Shown here: positions 40,627 through 52,886 of the stretch, piece by piece
How positions within the stretch are numbered: the first letter of the stretch is position 1
Layout: each line of letters opens with the position of its first letter
Assembly: GCF_038618305.1 (NCBI RefSeq)
Contig: NZ_CP152017.1
Location: 3,261,001 to 3,325,000, forward strand
Length of the DNA: 64,000 nt
Source of the DNA: Sporosarcina sp. FSL K6-2383
GTDB taxonomy: Bacteria > Bacillota > Bacilli > Bacillales_A > Planococcaceae
Direction: 5' to 3'
Translations under genes and position numbers: made by a program
Notes under the pieces: model-generated
What the model was told of the DNA's origin: nothing
Seen by the model: only the letters and a program-made list of their open reading frames with translations
Database searches by the model: none

Positions 40627-41805
40627 TCAACAAATTAACTCATCTATTTCTCGCGGGTAGGTCGTTAAAACTTCACTACCGTTTTCAGTCACCACTAGGG
40701 TTTCTGAGTGTCTAAATCCGCCCAAACCTTCAACATAAATACCTGGTTCAATTGAAAAAATCATATTTTCTTCAATGATCGTGTGATCGCCTAAATCCAA
40801 AAATGGACCTTCATGATTAAGTAAACCAAGGGAATGTCCAGTATGATGTCTTGTTAAATGCGTCACATTCTGTTCACGGAAATAGGCTTGTACTTGTTCC
40901 TCGACAGAAGAGCAGGTTACACCCGGCTTAATGGCTTTAAAAGCAATTTCTTGAGCTTCATACATGATTTGAAAATACTGTTGTTGCTCTTTTGTATATT
41001 CATTCACAAACATCGTTCGTTCCAACTCGCTATGATACCCCCAAATCGCTGCATCCGCGCCTGTCACTAACGTATCACCGTTTCTTAACGTCAAATTTGA
41101 CGTGACGGCATGTGGGAATGCGGACATAGGTCCAATTTGGCCTCTAAATACAATATAAGCTGTTGGCCCATGAGGAAGAAATTCAGGTCCTAATGCCTGA
41201 AGCATCGCCTCTGTCGCCTCGATGGAAGCCCTATTGGTGATTTCAATTTCATTTGCTCCATCTTTAGAGTATTTTTGCAATAACTCATGGGTTAATGTGG
41301 TCCACTTAATAGACTCTTTAATTAAAGCAATTTCATTATCCGATTTCACATATCTCATTTCTTCAAGAACCCTGCTGACCGATTGCCAGGAGTAATCTGC
41401 AAGTAAATCTGTCAAGCTTGGTCCGTGATAACCACTTGGCGATCCGTAGCCATTGCTATCAAATCCAAAAGTTTTTATCCCCTTATTTTGCTCAAGAAAT
41501 AGCTCTTTCAAATAAAGCATCGGGTGCTTTAAACCAGGATATTCCGGATAAGATTTTACATGGTCAACGAGTGCAAAGGCCTCGGCATGTTCCAATTCCA
41601 AACGCGGGACAAGCAAAGTAAAACGAGCATCTTCATTTACAATAAGCGCAATCGGCCGTTCGGAAGTCCAAAAGTGAAAACCCGTCAAATAAAAAATATT
41701 GACATTTGAAAACAACACAGCTCCTTCAACATTTTGAGACTTAATTTTCTCAATAAACCGCTTCTGCCTTTGATGCAATTCACTTTTCGGTATCGATAAA
41801 ATCAC
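40627..41805 (-). CDS. M24-family (pita-bread) hydrolase, metal site altered
   Basis: Protein of 392 residues with a creatinase-type N-terminal domain (about 10-150) and a C-terminal M24 pita-bread domain. The canonical metal ligands (Asp, Asp, His, Glu, Glu) are mostly changed: the first Asp position reads VTGAD, the second is Glu in GYHSELERTM, the His remains in HHTGHSLG, IEPGIY keeps one Glu, and the last is GFRHSE instead of RIED. This resembles creatinase and ectoine hydrolase more than a true aminopeptidase. GTG start behind AAGGAGG, with a 4-base overlap with the ATPase gene. Last gene of the operon. Confidence 0.85.
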   Translation of the reverse strand: MILSIPKSELHQRQKRFIEKIKSQNVEGAVLFSNVNIFYLTGFHFWTSERPIALIVNEDARFTLLVPRLELEHAEAFALVDHVKSYPEYPGLKHPMLYLKELFLEQNKGIKTFGFDSNGYGSPSGYHGPSLTDLLADYSWQSVSRVLEEMRYVKSDNEIALIKESIKWTTLTHELLQKYSKDGANEIEITNRASIEATEAMLQALGPEFLPHGPTAYIVFRGQIGPMSAFPHAVTSNLTLRNGDTLVTGADAAIWGYHSELERTMFVNEYTKEQQQYFQIMYEAQEIAFKAIKPGVTCSSVEEQVQAYFREQNVTHLTRHHTGHSLGLLNHEGPFLDLGDHTIIEENMIFSIEPGIYVEGLGGFRHSETLVVTENGSEVLTTYPREIDELIC

Positions 41806-42806
41806 TGGAGTTCCTCCTTATCTGTTGTGTATAAATGACACGCCACATACTGATCCGGTTCCGATTCAAGTAGTTCAGGAATGTCTACTTTGCAACGATC
41901 CATGGCAAATGGGCATCGCGTATGAAACGAGCAACCTGAAGGAGGATTCGCGGGATTTGGTACATCACCTTTTAAAATAATCCGTTCTTTTTTAGCTTTT
42001 GGGTCAACCTCGGGAACTGCTGAAATGAGTGCCTGCGTATAGGGATGCAATGCATTTTTAAATAGGTTTTCAGTTGTCGATATTTCCACAACTTTCCCCA
42101 AATACATCACAAGAACCCGGTCTGAAATATGCTGAACGACGGACAAATCATGGGTAATAAACAAATAAGTCAAGCCAAATTCATCTTGTAAATCTTTTAA
42201 TAAGTTAATGACTTGTGCCTGGACAGAAATATCTAATGCCGAAACAGGCTCATCTGCAACAATCACCCTCGGATTTAGAACAAGCGCCCGAGCAATTCCA
42301 ATCCGCTGGCGCTGTCCCCCGCTAAATTCATGTGGATATCGCTCGGCATACGTTTCATTTAAGCCAACCGCATTTAACAAGTCAGTGATTTTTTCTTTTC
42401 GTTCTTTTTTACTTCCAATTTTATGAACTTTTAACGGTTCCAGCAAAGTTCTCCCGATCGTCCATTTCGGATTCAAACTTGCATAAGGATCTTGAAATAC
42501 CATTTGAATGTCTCTTCTAACCTTTTTGAGCTCTTTACCAGTTAGAGAATCAATTCTTCTTCCATCCATTTCAATAGTACCTTCTGTTTTCTGTAAAAGT
42601 TGAATGATCACCCGAGCCATTGTCGATTTCCCACAACCGCTCTCTCCAACAATGCCTAAAGTTTCTCCTTTAAACACTTCAAAACTTACACCGTCCACTG
42701 CCCTTACCGCTGTGCTTCCCTTCGATAAGACCTTATTTTTGATTGGAAAATGCTTCTTTAAATCGGTTACCTGCAGTATGACTTCTTTGGTTCCTCCTTT
42801 TGTCAT
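41802..42806 (-). CDS. Oligopeptide ABC importer ATPase, DppF/OppF type
   Basis: ATPase of 334 residues: Walker [10 protein letters not shown], signature FSGGQRQRIGIARAL, Walker B VIVADEPVSALD, and the C-terminal oligopeptide/dipeptide domain with Cys-rich GCSFHTRCPFAMDRC. The ATG at 42806 lies one base after the stop of the preceding ATPase; GGAG is 9 bases upstream. Part of a full Dpp-like importer with DppA, B, C and D types in this operon. Confidence 0.93.
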   Translation of the reverse strand: MTKGGTKEVILQVTDLKKHFPIKNKVLSKGSTAVRAVDGVSFEVFKGETLGIVGESGCGKSTMARVIIQLLQKTEGTIEMDGRRIDSLTGKELKKVRRDIQMVFQDPYASLNPKWTIGRTLLEPLKVHKIGSKKERKEKITDLLNAVGLNETYAERYPHEFSGGQRQRIGIARALVLNPRVIVADEPVSALDISVQAQVINLLKDLQDEFGLTYLFITHDLSVVQHISDRVLVMYLGKVVEISTTENLFKNALHPYTQALISAVPEVDPKAKKERIILKGDVPNPANPPSGCSFHTRCPFAMDRCKVDIPELLESEPDQYVACHLYTTDKEELQ

Positions 42807-42807
42807 C

Positions 42808-43788
42808 TTAAACGACTCCTTCTTTTTCAAACAACCAGCACGCCACTTCACTTTCAGTATTCCTCACGAAAGTCGGAGGCTGTTGCTCCCTGCATTTATC
42901 CATTGCAAAAGGGCATCTATCTGCAAATCGGCAACCCTTTCCCCAAAGTTTAGGGGGTGGAACTTGACCGGATATATAGGGAAGTCTTGACTGCGGGGTT
43001 GCATTTTTAGGCAACGAGGCTAGCAATCCTTTTGTGTAGGGATGCTGTGGGTTCTCCAAGACATTTTCCACATTTCCACTTTCCACAATTCGCCCCGCAT
43101 ACATGACCAAAACTCTTTCACAAGCTTCAGATACCACACCCAAATCATGTGTAATTAAGATCATTGCCATATTACTTTTTTGTTGCAATTCTTTTAGTAA
43201 TTCTAGGATTTGAGCTTGAATTGTAACATCCAAAGCCGTCGTTGGCTCATCCGCAATCAATACTTTTGGTCGACAAGCAATCGCTATTGCGATCATGACT
43301 CTTTGCCTCATACCCCCAGACAATTGGTGTGGATAACTGTTCGCAATTTCTTCGGCTCTTCCGATTCCCACCTGCTCAAGCAGATTAATAATCACCGAAT
43401 ATCTCTGTGCTTTACTCAGTGTTCCATGAATTTTAAGCGATTCCCCAATTTGATCTCCTACCTTATAAACAGGATTTAAAGAGGTCATCGGCTCTTGGAA
43501 AATCATTGATATATCCTTGCCCCTGATTTTCCGAAACTCTTTATTGCTTAACTTACCAAGATCCATATCATCGAACAGAATCGAATCCGCCGTTACTTCG
43601 CCAGGCGGCTTGACCAGTCCCATAATCGAGAGGGATGTTAGGCTTTTCCCACATCCCGATTCTCCAACAATTCCAAGCGTTTCCCCCTCATAAACTTCAA
43701 AGGAAATATTATCTACGGTTACAGTCAATTCTTTTTTATTTCTAAAACTTGTAGATAAATTCTTAACGTCTAATATTTTTCGTTTCAA
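42808..43788 (-). CDS. Oligopeptide ABC importer ATPase, DppD/OppD type
   Basis: ATPase of 326 residues: Walker [10 protein letters not shown], signature [15 protein letters not shown], Walker [14 protein letters not shown], and a C-terminal Cys-rich segment [16 protein letters not shown] chose the TTG at 43788 ([11 protein letters not shown]), 8 bases after AGGAG; the GTG at 43797 is too close to the ribosome site. It pairs with the next ATPase as a heterodimer. Confidence 0.92.
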
Positions 43789-43818
43789 ATTTATCACTCC
43801 TTGAACGCAAGATTGTTT

Positions 43819-45120
43819 TTATAGTAGGGCATCCAAACTGCTGTCCATCAACTTCACAAGAACATTTATTTCCTGATCACCATGCGCTAAGGAAATAGCA
43901 TGATGCAGTAAATAATTTCCTGAACAAAATACACCTTTTTCTCCAAGTGCTGCTGTAAATTTTTGATAAGCATCCTTATTCGCAACCGCGGCTTCTCTAT
44001 AGTTTCTTGGTGCTTTTTCAGAGAAGTACCAATGGAAATGGCCACCTTTACCAACCATATTCGCTGCTATATTTTTATTTTTTGCACTCTCATTAAATTT
44101 ACTAATGAGTGTTTCAGTCCGTGCATCCAACACTTGCAGTACATTCTTCTTCTCATATACCTCCATGAAAGCCAGTGAGGCTGCCATGGAAACTTGGTGT
44201 CCATTATACGTTCCTACGAATGAACAAGAACCCGGTCCAGGGGCAGATTTACCCATAACTTCTGCTTTCCCTGCCACCGCTGCTAAAGGATAGCCATTAC
44301 TGATTGCCTTACCGAAAGTGGACAAGTCGGGTGTTACTCCGTAACGAAGTTGTGCTCCGCCTTTCGATTCTCTAAAGCCCGTTAATAATTCATCGAAAAC
44401 TAAAGCGATATTATACGTTGTGCATAAATCCCTGAGTGCCTGTAAATATGCTTTATCCGCGGGAATATAGCCAATGTCAATCATTGTAGGCTCGATAATT
44501 AAAGCCGCTATCCGATGATGGTTTTCTGCAAGTAATTTTTCCGTCACTTCAATATTGTTGAATGGAAGGACAAGCGTACTTTCTACGGAAGCTTGATCTA
44601 AGCCAAGTGAACCCGGTAGAGATTTGGGATTTGTTTCATCTCCCGCAATATCCAACGGTGGCCAAGTGCTTACGTTAACAGCGTCATGCCAACCATTATA
44701 TGCACCTTCAATTACTGCAATGTTTGTCTTTCCTGTATACGTGCGTGCAATCCTTATAGCATGCATGACAGCTTCCGTGCCTGTATTTGTATATTTAACT
44801 TGATCGGCCGTTGTCACTAGGTCCAAAAATTTCTTAGCTGTTTTCACGCTGATTTCCGTTTCCACTCCTGTAACAATACCCGACTTCAAGTAATCTCCTA
44901 GTAAATCATTAAAATCTTTATTCGCATGGCCCAAAATGACAGCACCATTTCCCATAATAATGTCCAAATACTTATTATCATCAACGTCAGTCATATAAGC
45001 GCCGTTTGCAGTTTTAAAGTAAATTGGATGCGGTTGGCGAAATCTACTATTTGAATGAACTCCTCCTGGTACAAACGTCTTAATATCGTTATATATCTTT
45101 TCTGAGTTTATTAGTTTCAT
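43819..45120 (-). CDS. Class III aminotransferase, glutamate-1-semialdehyde aminotransferase-like
   Basis: PLP enzyme of 433 residues. Family features: PGGVHSNSRFRQPHP near the N-terminus, TNTGTEAVMHAIRIARTYTG (phosphate-binding), LVFDELLTGFRESKGG and the PLP lysine in STFGKAISNGYPLAAVAG. It is not linked to haem synthesis genes, so it is more likely a catabolic omega-aminotransferase or aminomutase. The ATG at 45120 follows GAGGAGAATTGTA. It lies between the DUF885 peptidase and ATPase genes of the importer operon. Confidence 0.88.
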   Translation of the reverse strand: MKLINSEKIYNDIKTFVPGGVHSNSRFRQPHPIYFKTANGAYMTDVDDNKYLDIIMGNGAVILGHANKDFNDLLGDYLKSGIVTGVETEISVKTAKKFLDLVTTADQVKYTNTGTEAVMHAIRIARTYTGKTNIAVIEGAYNGWHDAVNVSTWPPLDIAGDETNPKSLPGSLGLDQASVESTLVLPFNNIEVTEKLLAENHHRIAALIIEPTMIDIGYIPADKAYLQALRDLCTTYNIALVFDELLTGFRESKGGAQLRYGVTPDLSTFGKAISNGYPLAAVAGKAEVMGKSAPGPGSCSFVGTYNGHQVSMAASLAFMEVYEKKNVLQVLDARTETLISKFNESAKNKNIAANMVGKGGHFHWYFSEKAPRNYREAAVANKDAYQKFTAALGEKGVFCSGNYLLHHAISLAHGDQEINVLVKLMDSSLDALL

Positions 45121-45131
45121 TACAATTCTCC

Positions 45132-46331
45132 TCATCTAAACAATTTTAATTCATCTGTCGTCAGCATATTATGATACAAAAATTCAAAGTATCTTTGTTT
45201 TTGCTCATTACTAATTTGCTTAAAAGATTCACGCACACCCTCATATCCTCGGAAATAAGAATAGATAAAAGGTCCACGAAGTGGATGTTTGATAAACCTC
45301 ATTCTTGATTCAATCCACTCTTCTTGTCCAAAAGCAAAGTTACGTAGAAAACTAGCAACTTCAGTTGGGTCCTTCTGTAATTCATTCAATTGATACGAAG
45401 AGTTCATGCCTGCAACAGACTTAATCGTCTGTACAATCTCCCCGATTTCATCATTGATTGTATGGTTCCAGTCAATAAAATCCATACCATTATCACCGAT
45501 GCCTTCAAAAATTGGACTGGATGCCGTATTTGTTATGACTAACGCAGCGTCTGCAGGAACATTTCCTTTTAAATACTGGGATTCTCTTATATGCATATGT
45601 GTTGTATGACCTGGAAACACCTCATGTGTAGCTAAGTGCTTTAAAGATTCATATGTGTATTCCAAATCGCCGTTAATAATCATTGTTTCATTGACATAAT
45701 CGCAATAGGCACTGTAGGGGACATCGTGAACAATTTTCACCTTCACTTGAACACTTTCCACTTCGGGAAACATCTTCTCCATTACATCTACCTTCGCCAT
45801 TTCCAATAATGTATTTAAAGTCGATTCGATTTCTTCTGTAGGAATGAGTCGATCTTGTTTCCACTTCATATAATTCGAGTGGACATCTTCCGTAAGACCA
45901 ATCTTTTTAAATTTTTCCTGTAGGGTAAAATGCAATAACCCGGCTTGCGTGGTTGTCCAAGGATTTTCATTGACGTATAGAAACTCCCTGACCTGCCTAC
46001 GAAAATCAAATTTTTCATTACTTGACCATTTGACTAAGCTAATTAGGCTATTGATCTGCTTCATCATATAGAAGCTTCTTATTTCACTGTTTAGTTTTTT
46101 ATATTCATTTTTTAATTCTTCCAAGTCAAAAATAATTTCCGCTGTATTAGAATAGACCTTCGGTGTGATTGTCGTTAAATTAATGGGAACTAGACCTTCA
46201 TCATTCAATACCGCGTCTGTTCCACTTGTATTGTTCGCTTTAAAATAATCATCCAATCCCTGAACAATACGGACATACCTTTCACTGGCAATGAAATCCG
46301 ATGATTCATATTTAATAAGCGGCATACTCAT
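45132..46331 (-). CDS. DUF885-type putative zinc metallopeptidase
   Basis: Protein of 399 residues without signal peptide, mostly helical. The motif HEVFPGHTTHMH near residue 235 matches the HExxPGH zinc-site signature of DUF885 proteins, which resemble M32-like carboxypeptidases. Later Glu-containing helices (FEGIGDNGMDF) could supply the third ligand. It is shorter than the usual roughly 550 residues. It overlaps the deacylase gene stop by four bases (ATGA). Cytoplasmic hydrolase acting on the imported compound is an inference from context. Confidence 0.75.
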   Translation of the reverse strand: MSMPLIKYESSDFIASERYVRIVQGLDDYFKANNTSGTDAVLNDEGLVPINLTTITPKVYSNTAEIIFDLEELKNEYKKLNSEIRSFYMMKQINSLISLVKWSSNEKFDFRRQVREFLYVNENPWTTTQAGLLHFTLQEKFKKIGLTEDVHSNYMKWKQDRLIPTEEIESTLNTLLEMAKVDVMEKMFPEVESVQVKVKIVHDVPYSAYCDYVNETMIINGDLEYTYESLKHLATHEVFPGHTTHMHIRESQYLKGNVPADAALVITNTASSPIFEGIGDNGMDFIDWNHTINDEIGEIVQTIKSVAGMNSSYQLNELQKDPTEVASFLRNFAFGQEEWIESRMRFIKHPLRGPFIYSYFRGYEGVRESFKQISNEQKQRYFEFLYHNMLTTDELKLFR

Positions 46332-47257
46332 GCTTTTGGCTCCGCTGTTTCCAAATTACCGATCATATAGCCATAATCTCCAGGATTTACTTTGCCAATC
46401 AGCCCTCTCATTAGAACAACGATATTTCTTTCATATGGGGTTTTTATGGTTTCAATTAAGTCAAATGTTTTCGGATTATATATATTACAAAGAACTTGCT
46501 GTCCTTTAATTTCCTGACCAACTGCTTCAAAATCAAATTCAGGCACCAGCATTCCTCCATTTTTCGGGCGAATAATTGTAATTTCTGAAAGGACAACCTG
46601 ATCCTCTCTCTTCTCAGCTGTGCCTGGAATCATCTGAAGATGTTTGAGGCAATTCACAATTCCTTGCACGCCTCTTTCAACATGCTCGTTATAATTCGGT
46701 CCACCACCAATTTCAACGGTTACGCTCGGAACACCTTTAGCCACTGTGTATGTTGCCGTTGTCCCCTCATAAATATCTGTCGGACGATAAAGAAGAGGAA
46801 AGTTAAACGCTCTCGATAACGCTTCATCGTTTTGAATATATACGTAATCGACAATCGGAACGGCTCCACCTGCATGTAGATCAATGTAGTGATCTACTTT
46901 GTCCAAAAAGTTCTTCGTAATACTATGTGCTAGGATTTCACTTGACCACCCATCTTCTTTACCTGGGAATAGTCGATTTAAATTATTCATATCTAGTGGC
47001 GTATTTCTTGTTAACGATTCAAAAGCTAATGAATTGGCTACGGGTAATAACATAATTGTGCCGCTTAACTCGGACTCATCTATTTGATTATAAATTCGTC
47101 TAATAATCTCAGCGCCAATGATTTCATCCCCATGTATAACTGCTGAAATTCCTAAAACCGGACCTGGCTTCTCTCCAACGATTGTATGGATCGGCAATGT
47201 CACTTTCTCGCCATTCGATAAATGTGTTACGAAAATTTCCTCGTATGTTCTTCCCAT
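46328..47257 (-). CDS. Succinylglutamate desuccinylase/aspartoacylase-family (M14) deacylase
   Basis: Zinc hydrolase of 309 residues. The metal-binding HGDE occurs in ISAVIHGDEIIGAEII, and the second His in DHYIDLHAGG. VTVEIGGGPNYNEHVERG holds the catalytic Glu region. A beta-rich C-terminal domain follows. Family members remove acyl groups from amino acids; the ectoine-pathway deacetylase DoeB belongs here. I chose the ATG at 47257 after GAGGAAG. Cotranscribed with the importer. Confidence 0.88.
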   Translation of the reverse strand: MGRTYEEIFVTHLSNGEKVTLPIHTIVGEKPGPVLGISAVIHGDEIIGAEIIRRIYNQIDESELSGTIMLLPVANSLAFESLTRNTPLDMNNLNRLFPGKEDGWSSEILAHSITKNFLDKVDHYIDLHAGGAVPIVDYVYIQNDEALSRAFNFPLLYRPTDIYEGTTATYTVAKGVPSVTVEIGGGPNYNEHVERGVQGIVNCLKHLQMIPGTAEKREDQVVLSEITIIRPKNGGMLVPEFDFEAVGQEIKGQQVLCNIYNPKTFDLIETIKTPYERNIVVLMRGLIGKVNPGDYGYMIGNLETAEPKA

Positions 47258-47272
47258 GTTCAACTTCCTCTC

Positions 47273-48172
47273 TTATCTTCTTTTTAATTTCGTATCAGTT
47301 AGATCTCTAATTCCATCACCTAATAAATTAAACCCAAGAACCGTAATCATAATAGCTATTCCAGGGTATAAGGACAGGTGAAAAGACTCTCGAATATATT
47401 TCATTCCAAAAGCTAAGGTCCATCCCCAACTGGCTTCCGGAGGTTGAATTCCCAACCCTAGAAAGCTCAGGGTTGCTTCTGCGACAATTGCTACCCCTAG
47501 ACCGAGTGTGGCAATTACAATAATTGGGGCAATGCTATTTGGTAATATATTAAAAAATATGATTCTAAAATCGGATGAACCGATTGTTTTGGCAGCTTGA
47601 ATGTACTCTTCTTCCTTTATGGACAACACATTGGCTCGGACCACTCGTGCATAATTCGTCCAATAAACCAAACCAAGTGCAATAATCACATTTCCGATTC
47701 CCGGACCCAACGATGCGACTAAAGCAATTGCCAATAAAACAACTGGAAAAGACAAGAAAATATCAACAATTCTCATAATTATAGTGTCAATAAGCCCACC
47801 ATAATACCCGGCAATCAAACCAAGTGTGACGCCGATCACCATTGAAATAAGAACGGAAGTAATCCCCACTTCCAAAGAAACCCTCGCTCCGTAGATCAAT
47901 CTTGTGAATAGGTCTCTGCCATACTGATCAGTCCCTAAAAAGTGACCACCTTCACCCGGCTTCAATAAGCCATTTCTCATATTCATTTCGTATGGATCAT
48001 GCGTAGATAGAAACGGGGCAAATACCGCACAAATCACTACCAATACAACAATGATGCCGCCAAAAAAAGCAGACTTACTTTGCCATAAAAGACCCATTTT
48101 CATAAAAAGAAAACGTCCATTCATTTTTTGAGGTTTCGTATCCTCTAATTCTATTTTGTTGTTTGCTTCCAT
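47273..48172 (-). CDS. Oligopeptide ABC importer permease, DppC/OppC type
   Basis: Inner-membrane permease of 299 residues with an N-terminal OppC_N segment and about six membrane helices. Family motif: EYIQAAKTIGSSDFRIIFFNILPN (EAA-type loop). LLKPGEGGHFLGTDQYGRDL is a strong DppC signature. The ATG at 48172 follows AGGTGAG with 6-base spacing. It lies 14 bases after the DppB-type gene. Confidence 0.93.
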   Translation of the reverse strand: MEANNKIELEDTKPQKMNGRFLFMKMGLLWQSKSAFFGGIIVVLVVICAVFAPFLSTHDPYEMNMRNGLLKPGEGGHFLGTDQYGRDLFTRLIYGARVSLEVGITSVLISMVIGVTLGLIAGYYGGLIDTIIMRIVDIFLSFPVVLLAIALVASLGPGIGNVIIALGLVYWTNYARVVRANVLSIKEEEYIQAAKTIGSSDFRIIFFNILPNSIAPIIVIATLGLGVAIVAEATLSFLGLGIQPPEASWGWTLAFGMKYIRESFHLSLYPGIAIMITVLGFNLLGDGIRDLTDTKLKRR

Positions 48173-48186
48173 CTCCATCTCACCTA

Positions 48187-49167
48187 CTATTGCTGGATTT
48201 TCGGATTTATTAGAGAGTAAAGAATATCAACTAGCAAGTTTATCAATGCAAACACCAATGCGATTGCTAATACGGTTCCTTGTACTAACGGAAAATCCCT
48301 TTGACTGATCGCCGTAATAACGAGCCTTCCAATACCCGGCCATGCAAATACGGTTTCAGTAACAATTGCCCCGCCCAACAAGTTTCCAAATTGAAGGCCA
48401 ACAATCGTTACAATCGGGATCAATGCATTTCTAAAAGCATGTTTGACAATAATAAAGAAGTTTTTTACGCCTTTTGCCTCTGCAGTTCGAATATAATCTT
48501 CCTTTAAAACTTCAAGCATGGATGATCGTACCATCCTTGTAATAAAGGCCGCACTCATTAATCCTAAGGCTAAGGCAGGCATCAAAATATGCTTTAGACT
48601 TTCGACCAAATAATATAAATTGCCTGTTTTGATGGTCTGTATCATGGAAGACCATAATGGTTCCCCGCGTCCAAATGATGGTAAAACATTTAGTTCAACA
48701 GAGAAAAATAAAATCATCAATAAACCTAGCCAAAACACTGGGATAGATACGCCCAATTGAGCAAAAAACATACTAATGTAATCTACCCATGAAAATTGTT
48801 TAACCGCCGATATGATCCCTATTGGAATCGCAATGATTAGGGCAATGACCAAGGCAACAACTGCAAGTTCCAATGTAGCTGGCAAATGACCTAATACGAT
48901 ATCAATGACTGGCATATGTTGAAAAATTGATACTCCTAAATCACCTTTCAGAAGATTGAGTAAAAAAACACCTAATTGAACTAAAAAGGGTTTGTTCAGC
49001 CCCATTTGTTCTCTGAATCTGTCCACTTCATCTGCAGAAGCATCCTGACCTAATAGGGTCATTGCCGGATCACCGGGAATTAAATACAAGAGTAAAAAAA
49101 CAAGTACGGAAATCCCCAGCAACACTGGGATAAGCTGCAATATTCTTTTCAAGATAAAGGTAGCCAT
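48187..49167 (-). CDS. Oligopeptide ABC importer permease, DppB/OppB type
   Basis: Permease of 326 residues: ILKRILQLIPVLLGISVLVF at the N-terminus, GDPAMTLLG, and the EAA loop DYIRTAEAKGVKNFFIIVKH. GGAIVTETVFAWPGIGRL is typical of DppB. Start ATG behind GGAG. It forms the transmembrane pore with the DppC-type partner. Confidence 0.94.
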   Translation of the reverse strand: MATFILKRILQLIPVLLGISVLVFLLLYLIPGDPAMTLLGQDASADEVDRFREQMGLNKPFLVQLGVFLLNLLKGDLGVSIFQHMPVIDIVLGHLPATLELAVVALVIALIIAIPIGIISAVKQFSWVDYISMFFAQLGVSIPVFWLGLLMILFFSVELNVLPSFGRGEPLWSSMIQTIKTGNLYYLVESLKHILMPALALGLMSAAFITRMVRSSMLEVLKEDYIRTAEAKGVKNFFIIVKHAFRNALIPIVTIVGLQFGNLLGGAIVTETVFAWPGIGRLVITAISQRDFPLVQGTVLAIALVFALINLLVDILYSLINPKIQQ

Positions 49168-49222
49168 TGTATCACTCCTAATGCGGGGAAAGGAAGACCC
49201 TTCCCCCGATTAACTATCATGA

Positions 49223-50818
49223 TTATTTTGTTAGTACTGCATCTTTCAATCCGTAAAAACTACCATTGGAATACGTTTCAAAACCTTCTAAGTTTTTGTT
49301 ATACATCGCGACATATCCTTGGTATAAAAGGACGTTATATCCCACTTCTTCGGTAACAATTTGTGCAATCTCTTTATAAATTTCTTTACGCTCATCTTGT
49401 TCCAATGAAGCACGTCCAGCTGCAAGAAGCTCGTCCACTTTCGGGTTATTATATTTACCGTAGTTACTACCACTACCAGAGTAAAATTGGTTATAAGTTG
49501 CTCGGTCCGGGTCAAACAGATTCAACCAACCGAGTAAGGCAATATCAAAATTGCCTTCCATCATATTTGCGCTAAAAGTCGGCCACTCATTTGTTAGAAC
49601 TTCTACCTTAACGCCATTTTTTTCAAATTCATTTTGTAAATATTCAACGGTTTGAATTCTGTTCGGATCTTCACTATGTGTAGAGAGCGTAATCTCAAAT
49701 CGTTTACCATCTTTATCGTAAAAACCATCACCGTCCGTATCTTCCCATCCCGCTTCGTTAAACAATTCTTTTGATTTTTCAGAATTATATTCAAAGACAG
49801 GTACATCTTCTGTATACGCCCAAGAAGCTGGGAGTAATGGAGATAGTGCCGGAGTATCCATCGAACGATAAATATCTTTCGAAATGACTTCTTTATTTAT
49901 GATATGTGAAATGGCTTGTCTTACTTTCACATCTGAAGTCCACTCGCCTTGCATATTGAAGTTCAAATACGTATAGCCAAGTCCTTCCATTTCTACTACT
50001 TCAAACTTGTCATTCCCTTTCACTCTTTCAATATCTTGAGGGGATAGCGGAGAGTGAACAAGATCAATATCTCCCGACTCTAATGAGGCTACCCGTGTTG
50101 TATTATCAGGAATAATAAAGTAAGTAATTTTTTCTGTTTTACTTTTTCCTCCCCAATATGATTCATTTGCTTCAAAAGCAATTTTACTGTTTTTATCCCA
50201 CTTCACCATCTTATACGGGCCCGTTCCTACTGGGGTTCCAGCTAAACTATTGTCATCTTTTTCACCGATATGTTTTGGAACAATTCCTAAATCCAAGTAA
50301 CTTAGTAAAGGTGCATAGGGTTGTTTTAAGTTAAATTGCACTGTATGCTCATCAACTACTTCGATAGATTCAATCGGTTCATATAGTACGAGAAAAGGCG
50401 CCTGAAATTCTGGGTCTAACACTTTATCGAATGTGTACTTTACATCTTCTGCAGTGAATGGTTCACCATCGTGGAATGTGACATCTTTTCTTAAGTTGAA
50501 AATCCATGTCGTTGCATCTGGATTGCTCCATTCCTCCGCTAATGATGGTTGAGGCTCTAGGCTGTTCGACAACCTAACCAATCCATCATATACAAGCTCA
50601 TTCACTCTTTTCCCACTTGAATCATTTGCAAGTCTAGGATCCATCGTCCCCGCATCTACATCCAATCCTATTTTAATTTCATTTTTATATTCCGAATTCG
50701 CACTACCACCTTTACCTTGATCGCCCGGCTCCTCTGAACTGTAACTGCAACCTGAAAGTACTAGGATTGAAATAAATGTCGCAACGAGCAACAAACTAAT
50801 TTTCTTTTTCTTCAGCAT
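49223..50818 (-). CDS. Oligopeptide-type ABC importer substrate-binding lipoprotein
   Basis: Family 5 extracellular solute-binding protein (DppA/OppA-like), 531 residues, with lipobox VLSGC. Clear family segments: MDPRLANDSSGKRVNELVYDG, DVTFHDGEPFTAEDVKYTF, and GTGPYKMVKW. It determines what the operon imports. Such proteins bind peptides, nickel, opines or other amino-acid conjugates, so the ligand is unknown. ATG start behind AGGAGG. Confidence 0.92.
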   Translation of the reverse strand: MLKKKKISLLLVATFISILVLSGCSYSSEEPGDQGKGGSANSEYKNEIKIGLDVDAGTMDPRLANDSSGKRVNELVYDGLVRLSNSLEPQPSLAEEWSNPDATTWIFNLRKDVTFHDGEPFTAEDVKYTFDKVLDPEFQAPFLVLYEPIESIEVVDEHTVQFNLKQPYAPLLSYLDLGIVPKHIGEKDDNSLAGTPVGTGPYKMVKWDKNSKIAFEANESYWGGKSKTEKITYFIIPDNTTRVASLESGDIDLVHSPLSPQDIERVKGNDKFEVVEMEGLGYTYLNFNMQGEWTSDVKVRQAISHIINKEVISKDIYRSMDTPALSPLLPASWAYTEDVPVFEYNSEKSKELFNEAGWEDTDGDGFYDKDGKRFEITLSTHSEDPNRIQTVEYLQNEFEKNGVKVEVLTNEWPTFSANMMEGNFDIALLGWLNLFDPDRATYNQFYSGSGSNYGKYNNPKVDELLAAGRASLEQDERKEIYKEIAQIVTEEVGYNVLLYQGYVAMYNKNLEGFETYSNGSFYGLKDAVLTK

Positions 50819-50839
50819 GTTTTCTCCTCCTATTTTCCC

Positions 50840-51931
50840 TTATTGAAACTCTAGTGTTACAAGCTCTTTTGGTGATTTGTTTAAATTTTCACAGCCTGTT
50901 TCAGTGACACAAACTACATCTTCAAGCCGAATGCCAAACTCCCCTTCGAAATACAGTCCAGGCCCTATCGTAACAACCATCCCCTCCTTTAATGTTTCTT
51001 TGTTCTCTTTGTTGATAAATGGATATTCATACGCCTCGAGACCAATCCCGTGACCCGTCGCATGTATGAAGTACTGCGCGAGCCCTCTTTTCTCTAGACG
51101 ATTCCTAATGAACAAGTCAATTTCCCTCAACTCAATACCAGGCTTCATTATTTCCAAGACATCATTTTGAACTTCTTTCAAACTATCGTAGTGAGATAGG
51201 AACTTGCCATGCAACTTTGAAAAGGAGAACATTCTTGTCATATCTGAACAGTAATTGTTGTACTTCCCTCCCATATCGATTAAAAGAGGCTGATGCTCCT
51301 CAATGAATTTATCACCTGCTCGATGATGTGGATTCGCTGTATTGTTACCGCTCGCAATGATGGGTAAAAAAGTTAAATCATGTACACCCGAACTCTCATA
51401 AAAACTTCGGATTGTCTTGACAACCTCCCTTTCGGTTGTCGGGAAATGTTGCAACTGCCCAATTTGATGCATGACGGAATCTGTAATTCTAGAAGATTGA
51501 CGTAAAATATTTATTTCTTCAATTCCCTTTATTTCTCGTTGCCTTTCAATACAATCCGATAGCCTAATTTTTAAATCATCTCTTTTAGAAGTGATTTGCA
51601 AGAAGGTCGCTATATTTAGGTGCTTGTCAATACCTACACGACTACTCATAGGGATTAAAGCAAGTACTCTTTCAAGTGGATTTTCTCCATCTTTGTAGTA
51701 GTGAACTTTTTCATTACTGATCTGTCCAATCTGATCTGAAAATATCTCGTTGAGTACAATATGCCTATCGCCGCTTGCTGTTACGACAGCAACTCCCAAT
51801 CGATCCCCAGTAATTAAGGTATGTCCAAACAGATATTGAATATTTGCATTTGAACTTACGATGAGTACATCAAAACCGGAGTCATTCATCCTTTGAAATG
51901 TTCCTTTTAGTCTACTTTGTAAATTCTCCAT
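50840..51931 (-). CDS. M24-family (pita-bread) peptidase or hydrolase
   Basis: Protein of 363 residues with a creatinase-like N-terminal domain and a C-terminal M24 domain. Metal ligands present: two Asp in LIDMGGKYNNYCSDMTRMF, His in ATGHGIGLE, and Glu in GIRLEDVV. The expected Glu in the EPG motif is Gly (TIGPGLYFEG), so one of five ligands is missing. I chose the ATG at 51931 with GGGAGG upstream. It is the first gene of the importer operon, immediately after the leader terminator at 51947-51992. The role may be cleavage of an imported amide rather than general peptide turnover. Confidence 0.85.
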   Translation of the reverse strand: MENLQSRLKGTFQRMNDSGFDVLIVSSNANIQYLFGHTLITGDRLGVAVVTASGDRHIVLNEIFSDQIGQISNEKVHYYKDGENPLERVLALIPMSSRVGIDKHLNIATFLQITSKRDDLKIRLSDCIERQREIKGIEEINILRQSSRITDSVMHQIGQLQHFPTTEREVVKTIRSFYESSGVHDLTFLPIIASGNNTANPHHRAGDKFIEEHQPLLIDMGGKYNNYCSDMTRMFSFSKLHGKFLSHYDSLKEVQNDVLEIMKPGIELREIDLFIRNRLEKRGLAQYFIHATGHGIGLEAYEYPFINKENKETLKEGMVVTIGPGLYFEGEFGIRLEDVVCVTETGCENLNKSPKELVTLEFQ

Positions 51932-52072
51932 CGAATTCCTCCCAATAAAAAAGCAGAACCAAAAAATGCCTTTTCGCATTTTTTAGTTCCGCTAGGATTT
52001 AAAATTTGTATGTTGTTAAGAAGGGACTCTCCTCAACAAAACTTCAAGCTCGCGCAACAGAATATTCTATTA
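51932..52072 (-). promoter_or_regulatory. Candidate riboswitch or attenuator leader of the importer operon
   Basis: About 140 nt of transcribed leader between a sigma-A promoter and the first M24 gene. It contains a stem TTGTTGAGGA/TTCTTAACAA around GAGTCCC (near 52015-52042), a palindrome GAATATTC, and a strong terminator whose T-run is 3 bases before the ribosome site. The layout (promoter, structured region, terminator, RBS) is that of a transcriptional riboswitch or protein-controlled attenuator. I cannot match it to a known riboswitch consensus. Confidence 0.55.
51947..51992 (-). terminator. Intrinsic terminator inside the operon leader
   Basis: Minus strand: GCGGAACTAAAAAATGC pairs with GCATTTTTTGGTTCTGC (17 positions, a few G-T pairs), six-base loop GAAAAG, then TTTTTT. 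It is followed within 3 bases by GGGAGG. Confidence 0.85.
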
Positions 52073-52078
52073 ATTTAG

Positions 52079-52107
52079 ACTATACTTCAATGTTTTACAT
52101 CCGTCAA
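52079..52107 (-). promoter_or_regulatory. Sigma-A promoter of the M24/importer operon
   Basis: Minus strand: TTGACG (52102-52107), exactly 17-base spacer, TATAGT (52079-52084). The -35 begins directly after the DUF3870 stop codon (TAG). Confidence 0.75.
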
Positions 52108-52434
52108 CTACTTTTTCATGCTTGTATAAATTAAATATTGATTGTAAGCATCTTTTATTGCCATAACAATCGCCTTTTTCCCTAAACCAAAGTATCTACT
52201 TTCAAATATTTCTACCTGTTCTTCAATTCCTTGAGCAAGGCTATGGCCCTCAAAAATAGAATTTAGAAAGTCTGTGCACATATTTGTTATAAACGTACTT
52301 GACGTCTTTATTATTTCATCTGTACTTGGATCCACCTCAAAGCCAACACCCATAACACCATACAAATTTTTCGCTGCCATACCATCTGGTAACCGGGAAT
52401 ATCCCGTGCAAATAATTGTATCGCTTTTCCCCAT
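52108..52434 (-). CDS. DUF3870 domain protein
   Basis: Small protein of 108 residues. The DUF3870 pattern is clear: IICTGYSRLPDGMAAKNLYG, GVGFEVDPSTDEII and GLGKKAIVMAIKDAYNQYLI. No enzymatic role is known for the family. I chose the ATG at 52434 after AGGAGGG; a promoter lies at 52491-52519. It lies immediately upstream of the M24/importer operon in the same direction and probably serves the same substrate. Confidence 0.88.
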   Translation of the reverse strand: MGKSDTIICTGYSRLPDGMAAKNLYGVMGVGFEVDPSTDEIIKTSSTFITNMCTDFLNSIFEGHSLAQGIEEQVEIFESRYFGLGKKAIVMAIKDAYNQYLIYTSMKK

Positions 52435-52490: not shown

Positions 52491-52519
52491 ATTATAACAT
52501 TTTCAAATAACCCTTTAAA
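52491..52519 (-). promoter_or_regulatory. Promoter of the DUF3870 gene
   Basis: Minus strand: TTTAAA (52514-52519), 17-base spacer, TATAAT (52491-52496). Predicted leader about 50 nt. Upstream, a direct repeat TAGGCCA occurs twice near 52712-52738. Confidence 0.5.
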
Positions 52520-52845: not shown

Positions 52846-52886
52846 AAACCCCGTTTTCATCCAAACCTCGGATGAAAACGGGTTTC
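52846..52886 (-). terminator. Terminator of the large secreted nuclease gene
   Basis: AAACCCGTTTTCATCC (minus strand) pairs with GGATGAAAACGGGGTTT around GAGGTTT, followed by T residues. Confidence 0.85.

Follow-up and report, generated by a model that had tools for sequence, protein, structure and literature searches.

The 64,000-nucleotide stretch of Sporosarcina sp. FSL K6-2383 analysed here (NZ_CP152017.1, positions 3,261,001 to 3,325,000; hereafter the window) contains eleven open reading frames (ORFs) on the minus strand between positions 40627 and 52434, in the order given by an initial annotation that had been made from the sequence alone. Read in the direction of transcription, they encode a DUF3870 protein, a first M24 protein (M24a), a substrate-binding lipoprotein, DppB- and DppC-type permeases, an M14-family deacylase, a DUF885-like protein, a class III aminotransferase, DppD- and DppF-type ATPases and a second M24 protein (M24b). 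The gap between DUF3870 and M24a also holds a structured leader RNA, which was absent from the initial annotation. The enzymes are each of a known kind, and the leader RNA is without an Rfam match at threshold. The best explanation for this locus, and one that we regard as likely, is a mobile, substrate-inducible uptake-and-catabolism operon that is gated by the leader RNA.

The gene set and its distribution

The initial annotation had described a same-strand set of eleven genes with overlaps or short gaps, and the ORF list, the intergenic distances and the recurrence of the set in other genera bear this out. The gaps are 128 nucleotides between DUF3870 and M24a, 21 between M24a and the substrate-binding protein, 55 between the latter and DppB, 8 between DppB and DppC, 9 between DppC and the M14 gene, and 21 between the aminotransferase and DppD. 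We confirmed the ATGA and GTGA coupling: four-nucleotide overlaps join M14 to DUF885, DUF885 to the aminotransferase and DppF to M24b (GTGA). DppD and DppF overlap by 44 nucleotides as called, which becomes a gap of about +1 if DppF begins at the ATG at 42806, the likely start as read off the translation. M24b is followed after 239 nucleotides by nadX. Pfam searches supported both M24 proteins, as well as the SBP_bac_5, AstE_AspA, Aminotran_3 and DUF3870 assignments.

Relatives of the operon were collected by scanning a GTDB-based collection with an M14 alignment and keeping the best 80 of 490 matches. Among these, close copies (63-71%) were found in Brevibacillus reuszeri (two strains), a Brevibacillus metagenome-assembled genome (MAG), Cytobacillus firmus DS1, C. 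eiseniae, Terrihalobacillus insolitus and 'Paenibacillus sp. FSL R5-0490'. Together with the window and the loci of three further genomes (G446, G383 and G236), these seven make up the eleven Bacilli loci compared here. DUF3870, M24a, the substrate-binding protein, both permeases, the M14 protein, the DUF885-like protein, the aminotransferase and both ATPases are present at all eleven, so that the linkage of importer, hydrolases and aminotransferase, whose co-occurrence across Bacillales the initial annotation had proposed checking, is conserved over several genera. M24b is found at 7 of the 11, either at the 3' end of the operon or right behind DUF3870, and in G236 the DUF3870 gene lies on the opposite strand at the far end of the locus. 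An eight-gene core, without M24 genes and without DUF3870, occurs in a Eubacteriales MAG.

The distribution of the operon is sporadic. Within the genus, the DUF885-like protein and the operon were present in 2 of 68 genomes (the window's and G446). A close DUF885-like protein (>370 bits) was found in 3 of 398 genomes of the class, the window's included, and a distant one (22-25% identity) in five further genomes of this set. Across the phylum, 5 of 398 genomes, again including the window's, have a DUF885-like protein; most of these are distant, the best of the other four (G810) scoring 245.8 bits. This pattern leads us to suggest that the operon may be mobile.

More distant cousins, in which the DUF885-like protein is 18-30% identical, keep the importer together with M14, amidase, M20, creatininase-family and M28 genes. 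Four such clusters from two other genera (L052-L055) combine a Dpp importer and a DUF885-like gene with amidase-, creatininase- and M28-type genes, and L052 and L053 also carry an M14 gene (the Pfam scan covered L053 only). The cousin locus of Neorhizobium galegae has two M24b-like genes and an M14 gene, and in a Deinococcus cousin M24b adjoins the DUF885-like gene. On plasmids of Lichenicola and Deinococcus (L147, L149), the DUF885-like gene is accompanied by a second DUF885 gene, a Dpp importer, a 2-dehydropantoate-reductase-like protein and a Gfo/Idh/MocA protein; L146 has a similar set. M24 genes were annotated as split pieces in L146 (13117-14339) and L148 (2002-4363), which may reflect either genuine breakage or errors of sequencing.

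The leader RNA and its terminator

When the DUF3870-M24a gaps were compared across loci, a conserved segment was found 5' of a terminator. In the window this segment lies at 51989..52055 on the minus strand and forms three helices (P1, P2 and P3) over 65 model positions, making it a candidate riboswitch-type sensor domain; cmsearch gave it 61.2 bits, a score to be read with the window sequence itself being part of the model. RNAalifold, applied to eleven sequences, assigned 4 pairs to P1, 6 to P2 and 9 to P3, with a P3 loop of five or six bases, and found 11 of the 19 pairs altered on both sides, as was likewise the case for all 14 copies known to us. In the eleven sequences, 96.2% of cells pair, compared with 39-46% when the structure was slid along the alignment, and none of 500 shuffles reached the covariation score. 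The 14 copies gave the same 96.2% against 35-48%, with again no shuffle in 500 reaching the covariation score (0.420 vs 0.190), and with 31 double-change cells against 8.2 in shuffles.

A covariance model run on the 12 genomes from which the loci were taken matched 11 of them, always at the operon. This gives 14 copies in 11 genomes, every one directly 5' of M24a or M24b. Three copies that had not contributed to the model were recovered by it at 1.0e-16 to 2.0e-16; these are second copies, located in the M24b-M24a interval of the two B. reuszeri strains and of G383. Among 296 genomes of the class, searched with stricter filters, there were two strong matches, both in operon genomes, and among 59 sources, 38 of which were loci of other DUF3870 genes (some duplicated), only the window and the G236 locus matched. 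Two weak matches were set aside: one in G076 (23 bits, E 0.039) as spurious, being antisense inside another ORF, and one in L073 (11.5 bits, E 0.31) as chance.

Rfam 15 at its gathering threshold returned no match within window positions 36000-58000, and at six loci it returned two matches, neither of them at the leader, in a search that covered T-box, bglG and other leader classes. With relaxed settings, three leaders gave matches at chance level only (best E 0.22, 0.76 and 0.52). No copy was found in viral contigs with a single exact 24-base pattern, nor in plasmids by blastn with the C. firmus leader. A partial check of the literature, including the text accessible for PMC8632094, PMC11109978, PMC9788692 and PMC7266159, turned up neither the RNA nor this combination of RNA and genes. 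Separately, a match to the azaaromatic (yjdF) riboswitch lies downstream of the G383 operon (L050, 17787-17904).

An intrinsic terminator with an 18-pair stem follows at 51952..51993 on the minus strand, its 5' arm containing the 3' strand of P1. In the window this terminator came from an unguided scan. The same arrangement was seen in 14 of 14 leaders, an overlap that is partly by design, as the 14-leader scan began near the RNA end and tests the existence rather than the location of a terminator. The sensor segment alone is predicted to fold with P1 in all 14 copies. When the full leader is folded, the minimum-energy structure lacks P1 in all 14; forcing P1 to form costs 5.5 to 18.7 kcal/mol. 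Because the outer helix, P1, uses the 5' arm of the terminator, the two are mutually exclusive in these models, and because the minimum-energy fold of the full leader is without P1, termination is the predicted default state, so that whatever holds P1 would permit read-through. The leader would then act as an inducible ON switch, that is, as an antiterminator, as a catabolic operon needs.

The leader and the rest of the operon are preceded by a promoter-like site (TTGACG-17-TATAGT, 52079..52107, minus strand), and a second one with an extended -10 (TTTAAA-17-TATAAT, 52491..52519, minus strand) stands before DUF3870; both were identified by their match to the consensus. Because a promoter-like site and an intrinsic terminator stand between DUF3870 and M24a, DUF3870 is probably a transcription unit apart from the rest of the operon. 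For M24a, the start chosen by the ORF caller (51979) falls inside the leader hairpin, and we have therefore moved it to 51931, which is probably the true start. Further upstream, the interval between DUF3870 and the preceding gene holds a bidirectional terminator-like hairpin (52850..52882, both strands; stem of 15 pairs on the minus and 13 on the plus strand).

Importer, enzymes and DUF3870

The initial annotation had linked a complete Dpp-type importer with hydrolases and an aminotransferase. This holds for the window, and the same linkage is conserved in other genera. The importer consists of a family 5 (Dpp/Opp/Nik-type) substrate-binding lipoprotein with an SBP_bac_5 domain (49223..50818; PF00496, 347.2 bits), the permeases DppB (48187..49167; Opp2B, 343.1 bits for a cut-off of 350) and DppC (47273..48178), and the ATPases DppD (42808..43797) and DppF (41802..42806; NF008453, 442.4 bits for a cut-off of 408). 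The binding protein, DppB and DppF were scanned with profiles, and DppC and DppD were assigned from ORF reading and conserved position. Since the binding protein falls under every NCBIfam cut-off listed, no substrate can be named for it; staphylopine- and nickel-type import were rejected on this ground.

M24a (50840..51931) and M24b (40627..41805) both belong to the prolidase/creatinase superfamily, M24a matching PF00557 with 186.4 bits and M24b likewise belonging to PF00557. The canonical metal ligands of M24B enzymes are, by the position labels that we assume here, D, D, H, E and E. Aligned with an M24 protein of its own genome, M24b departs from the canonical family at three of these five positions, with G or A at the first Asp, E at the second and S or A at the fourth position in 7 of 7 rows, two of which are Deinococcus rows at 41-47% identity. 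H320, E353 and H366 are invariant in the same seven rows. These changes suggest that the metal centre of M24b may have been lost, although the Glu that replaces the second Asp could still bind metal. M24b matches prolidase profiles (176 bits) better than the creatinase 1chm (140 bits). Creatinase is a metal-free enzyme. In one study, creatinase kept >80% of its activity with ethylenediaminetetraacetate (EDTA), and Mn and Mg raised its activity (PMC7568399). M24a retains all five ligands in the five copies that make up its clade, all of them from other genera, and the window's protein has lost one of these ligands. In an M24 tree of the kind that the initial annotation had proposed, which included no creatinase row, DoeA formed a very long branch. 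The M24 row of L071 fell among housekeeping-type rows, and it was rejected as an M24a orthologue on this basis.

The M14 protein (46328..47263) is a putative deacylase of the AstE/AspA/DoeB type scoring 90.3 bits against PF24827 (cut-off 25), and is the sole PF24827 member in the genome. The motifs HGDE, N[LM]NR and D[LIV]HxGG and a later Glu, which we take to be the zinc-binding and catalytic residues, are intact in 12 of 12 operon rows. It matches solved DoeB chains at 4.9e-17, with two other AstE/AspA-type chains scoring better. In the M14 tree the outgroup branches were too long to use, and the operon rows did not fall on one side of a branch.

The DUF885 label given to the next protein (45132..46331) stood in part. 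No DUF885 profile supports it in Pfam or NCBIfam, the Pfam search, taken up to E 10, yielding one unrelated match below the cut-off (E 0.0087); the predicted fold and the motif do support it. Structure prediction with seven sequences gave a best model with a mean predicted local distance difference test (pLDDT) score of 86 (five models, 86 to 66), which matched the PDB five times at E<=0.001, each time a chain of 3iuk, 3o0y or 3u24. By their PDB titles, 3iuk is a DUF885 protein and the other two are putative lipoproteins. The residues H236, E237, P240, G241, H242 and E276 do not vary among the 13 homologues aligned, and this HExxPGH motif with its distal Glu makes the protein a putative zinc peptidase. 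It shares fold, motif and distal Glu with these DUF885-type proteins, but is shorter (399 residues vs 546-585) and has no Pfam match.

The class III aminotransferase (43819..45135) has HemL and GntE as its nearest relatives by profile, and the regions of the pyridoxal phosphate-binding lysine and of the N-terminal Arg align with theirs. It nevertheless reaches 336.5 of the 527.3 bits of TIGR00713 (HemL) and 311.6 of 525 bits for GntE, and it forms a clade of its own, with support 100/100, beside rather than within three HemL rows. The FEAxF Glu, presumably the HemL active-site residue, is missing in 9 of 9 operon aminotransferases aligned (NYLLHHA in the window). Two other loci of the genome pass TIGR00713 (647.8 and 550 bits), and identification of the operon enzyme as HemL was rejected on these grounds. 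Because of these two loci and three further M24 genes elsewhere in the genome, the housekeeping HemL and M24 roles are covered. The initial annotation had named clustering with HemL, combined with a lack of conserved linkage to the importer, as an outcome that would speak against it; the aminotransferase does group with HemL, as a separate clade, but the linkage is conserved.

DUF3870 (52108..52434; PF12986, 91.8 bits) recurs next to diverse catabolic genes. Its structure model (pLDDT 83) was predicted by Foldseek and VIA-align to have an IscU/SufU-like (NifU_N) fold. Unlike IscU, it has no cluster cysteines, a single Cys position exceeding 70% (79%) among 43 distinct rows, and the sequence support is weak: hhalign gave probabilities of 15% with trimmed and 3.4% with untrimmed profiles against IscU, 0.2-0.6% against E. 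coli IscU alone and <=0.2% for five unrelated controls. Homology to IscU was rejected on the basis of these values, and the relation is at most one of predicted fold. Sequence searches of the PDB returned no solved DUF3870 structure, and did not return 3kog. According to a 2015 article, PF12986/DUF3870 was assigned to a beta-rich Bacteroides domain, 3kog (PMC4387736); this conflicts with the alpha/beta family matched here, whose profile did not match 3kog.

Proposed mechanism, alternatives and known systems

In the mechanism that we propose, an amino compound, peptide-like or N-acylated, would enter through the Dpp-type ATP-binding cassette importer. Its amide or imide bonds would be opened by the M24 proteins and by the putative zinc peptidase with the DUF885 fold; an acyl group would be stripped by the M14 enzyme, and an amino group, possibly a non-alpha one, would be removed by the HemL-related aminotransferase. 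Transcription would begin after DUF3870, with the three-helix leader folding first; unless something holds P1, in the simplest case a small-molecule ligand, the terminator would capture the 3' strand of P1 before the first M24 gene. The simplest inducer would be a small molecule, either the imported compound or a product of it. We give about even odds to the more specific proposal of a rare new riboswitch class, in which the 65-position P1-P2-P3 RNA senses the imported compound or its product and, by antitermination, turns on an operon dedicated to a nutrient with an undescribed catabolic route, in which an M24 protein would work without the canonical metal site.

Several observations weigh against the proposed mechanism. 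In the window and in G446, both members of the genus, M24a has Gly in place of one ligand Glu and Tyr in place of a conserved His; its activity is doubtful there for this reason, and the protein may be inactive. The DUF885 fold matches have TM-scores of 0.50-0.56 with root-mean-square deviations of 12-14, and for the aminotransferase tree the program warned of long branches. The region contains no excess of promoter-like sites (30, against 39.8 expected by chance), and the sites preceding the leader score better than 95% of shuffles in just 7 of 14 copies. To the partly designed overlap of P1 and terminator can be added that the window copy has a mismatch in one P1 pair, and that the number of lineages behind the 14 copies is, by our estimate, perhaps six or seven, with G383 and both B. 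reuszeri strains being near copies. Finally, L073 has the core but neither the RNA nor M24 genes, and the RNA is therefore not universal.

The main rival to a small-molecule inducer is a protein or another non-metabolite signal acting on the leader, for example a BglG-type antiterminator, a leader peptide or DUF3870 itself, to which we assign a distinctly lower but still appreciable probability. Short antiterminator hairpins that overlap terminators do occur for proteins, and DUF3870 is the obvious candidate because its gene adjoins the leader, directly upstream of it, at 10 of 11 loci. Set against this, no Rfam leader class was matched at threshold, none of the 38 loci of other DUF3870 genes matched the RNA model, and in G236 DUF3870 is far from the leader. 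Less probable still, and in our judgement unlikely, is general scavenging of peptides, prolyl or acylated, by a broad-specificity operon that is not devoted to any special compound. The Dpp/Opp-type importer, the prolidase-like M24a, the peptidase folds and the presence of DUF3870 in other catabolic gene clusters would all fit such a role, whereas the sporadic distribution, the dedicated leader RNA, the separate aminotransferase clade and the altered M24b site would point to one specific substrate.

It is very unlikely that the covarying leader is a mere conserved terminator of DUF3870 without a regulatory role. It does lie behind DUF3870 at 10 of 11 loci with a strong terminator inside, but the second copies in B. 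reuszeri and G383 sit between M24b and M24a rather than after DUF3870, the G236 leader has no DUF3870 upstream, and three covarying helices 5' of the hairpin would be superfluous for termination. That promoter-like sites precede the leader also argues against it, and is the weak point of the argument, given the 7 of 14 copies noted above.

The remaining alternative is the ectoine parallel drawn in the initial annotation. M24b scores 61 and 85.6 bits and M24a 56.1 and 89 bits against the DoeA models TIGR02993 and NF038259, whose cut-offs are 613 and 575, and M14 scores 85.6 bits against 402.7 for the DoeB model TIGR02994. The Rhizobium johnstonii DoeA motifs EIAG, NRTGY, MTGLW and ETTE, located at the former metal site, are not shared by M24b, which has GADA-type, HHTGH, EPGIY and RH[SA][ED] sequences in their place. 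One paper places DoeD in the acetylornithine aminotransferase family (PMC5924519), and the operon aminotransferase reaches 150.5 of the 410.05 bits of the argD model. The suggestion that the adjacent nadX would be a functional partner also failed, as nadX is not conserved, with no match in the DNA examined round the relatives' operons. An ectoine-type route, with M24 ring opening, M14 deacetylation and class III transamination to aspartate semialdehyde, is thus very unlikely and the least probable of the readings, the same three enzyme superfamilies and the match of M14 to DoeB chains being outweighed by cut-offs missed by hundreds of bits, the absent DoeA residue pattern, another aminotransferase subfamily, a Dpp-type importer and the lack of nadX beside relatives.

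If the operon is indeed gated by its leader, the gain would be a further class of RNA and a further pathway, together with roles for the DUF885-like and DUF3870 proteins and for M24 proteins with an altered site. As the RNA is an orphan tied to one uncharacterised operon, a search for the inducer using the small RNA or a reporter would point to the nutrient.

In its layout, the operon resembles the ectoine clusters (doeABDC and eutDE-atf-ssd), which likewise combine an importer with an M24 protein, an AstE/AspA-type deacylase and a class III aminotransferase. Besides the differences in profile scores, aminotransferase subfamily and importer, it is distinguished from them by its additional DUF885-like peptidase and RNA leader, and by lacking EnuR- and DoeC-type genes within the operon, to which that search was confined. 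In its leader, it resembles the ON-type transcriptional riboswitches, in which a domain of the 5' leader has an outer helix that competes with the intrinsic terminator of a metabolic operon. Unlike these, the leader RNA described here belongs to no Rfam family at threshold, and in the data searched its strong matches are confined to this one operon.

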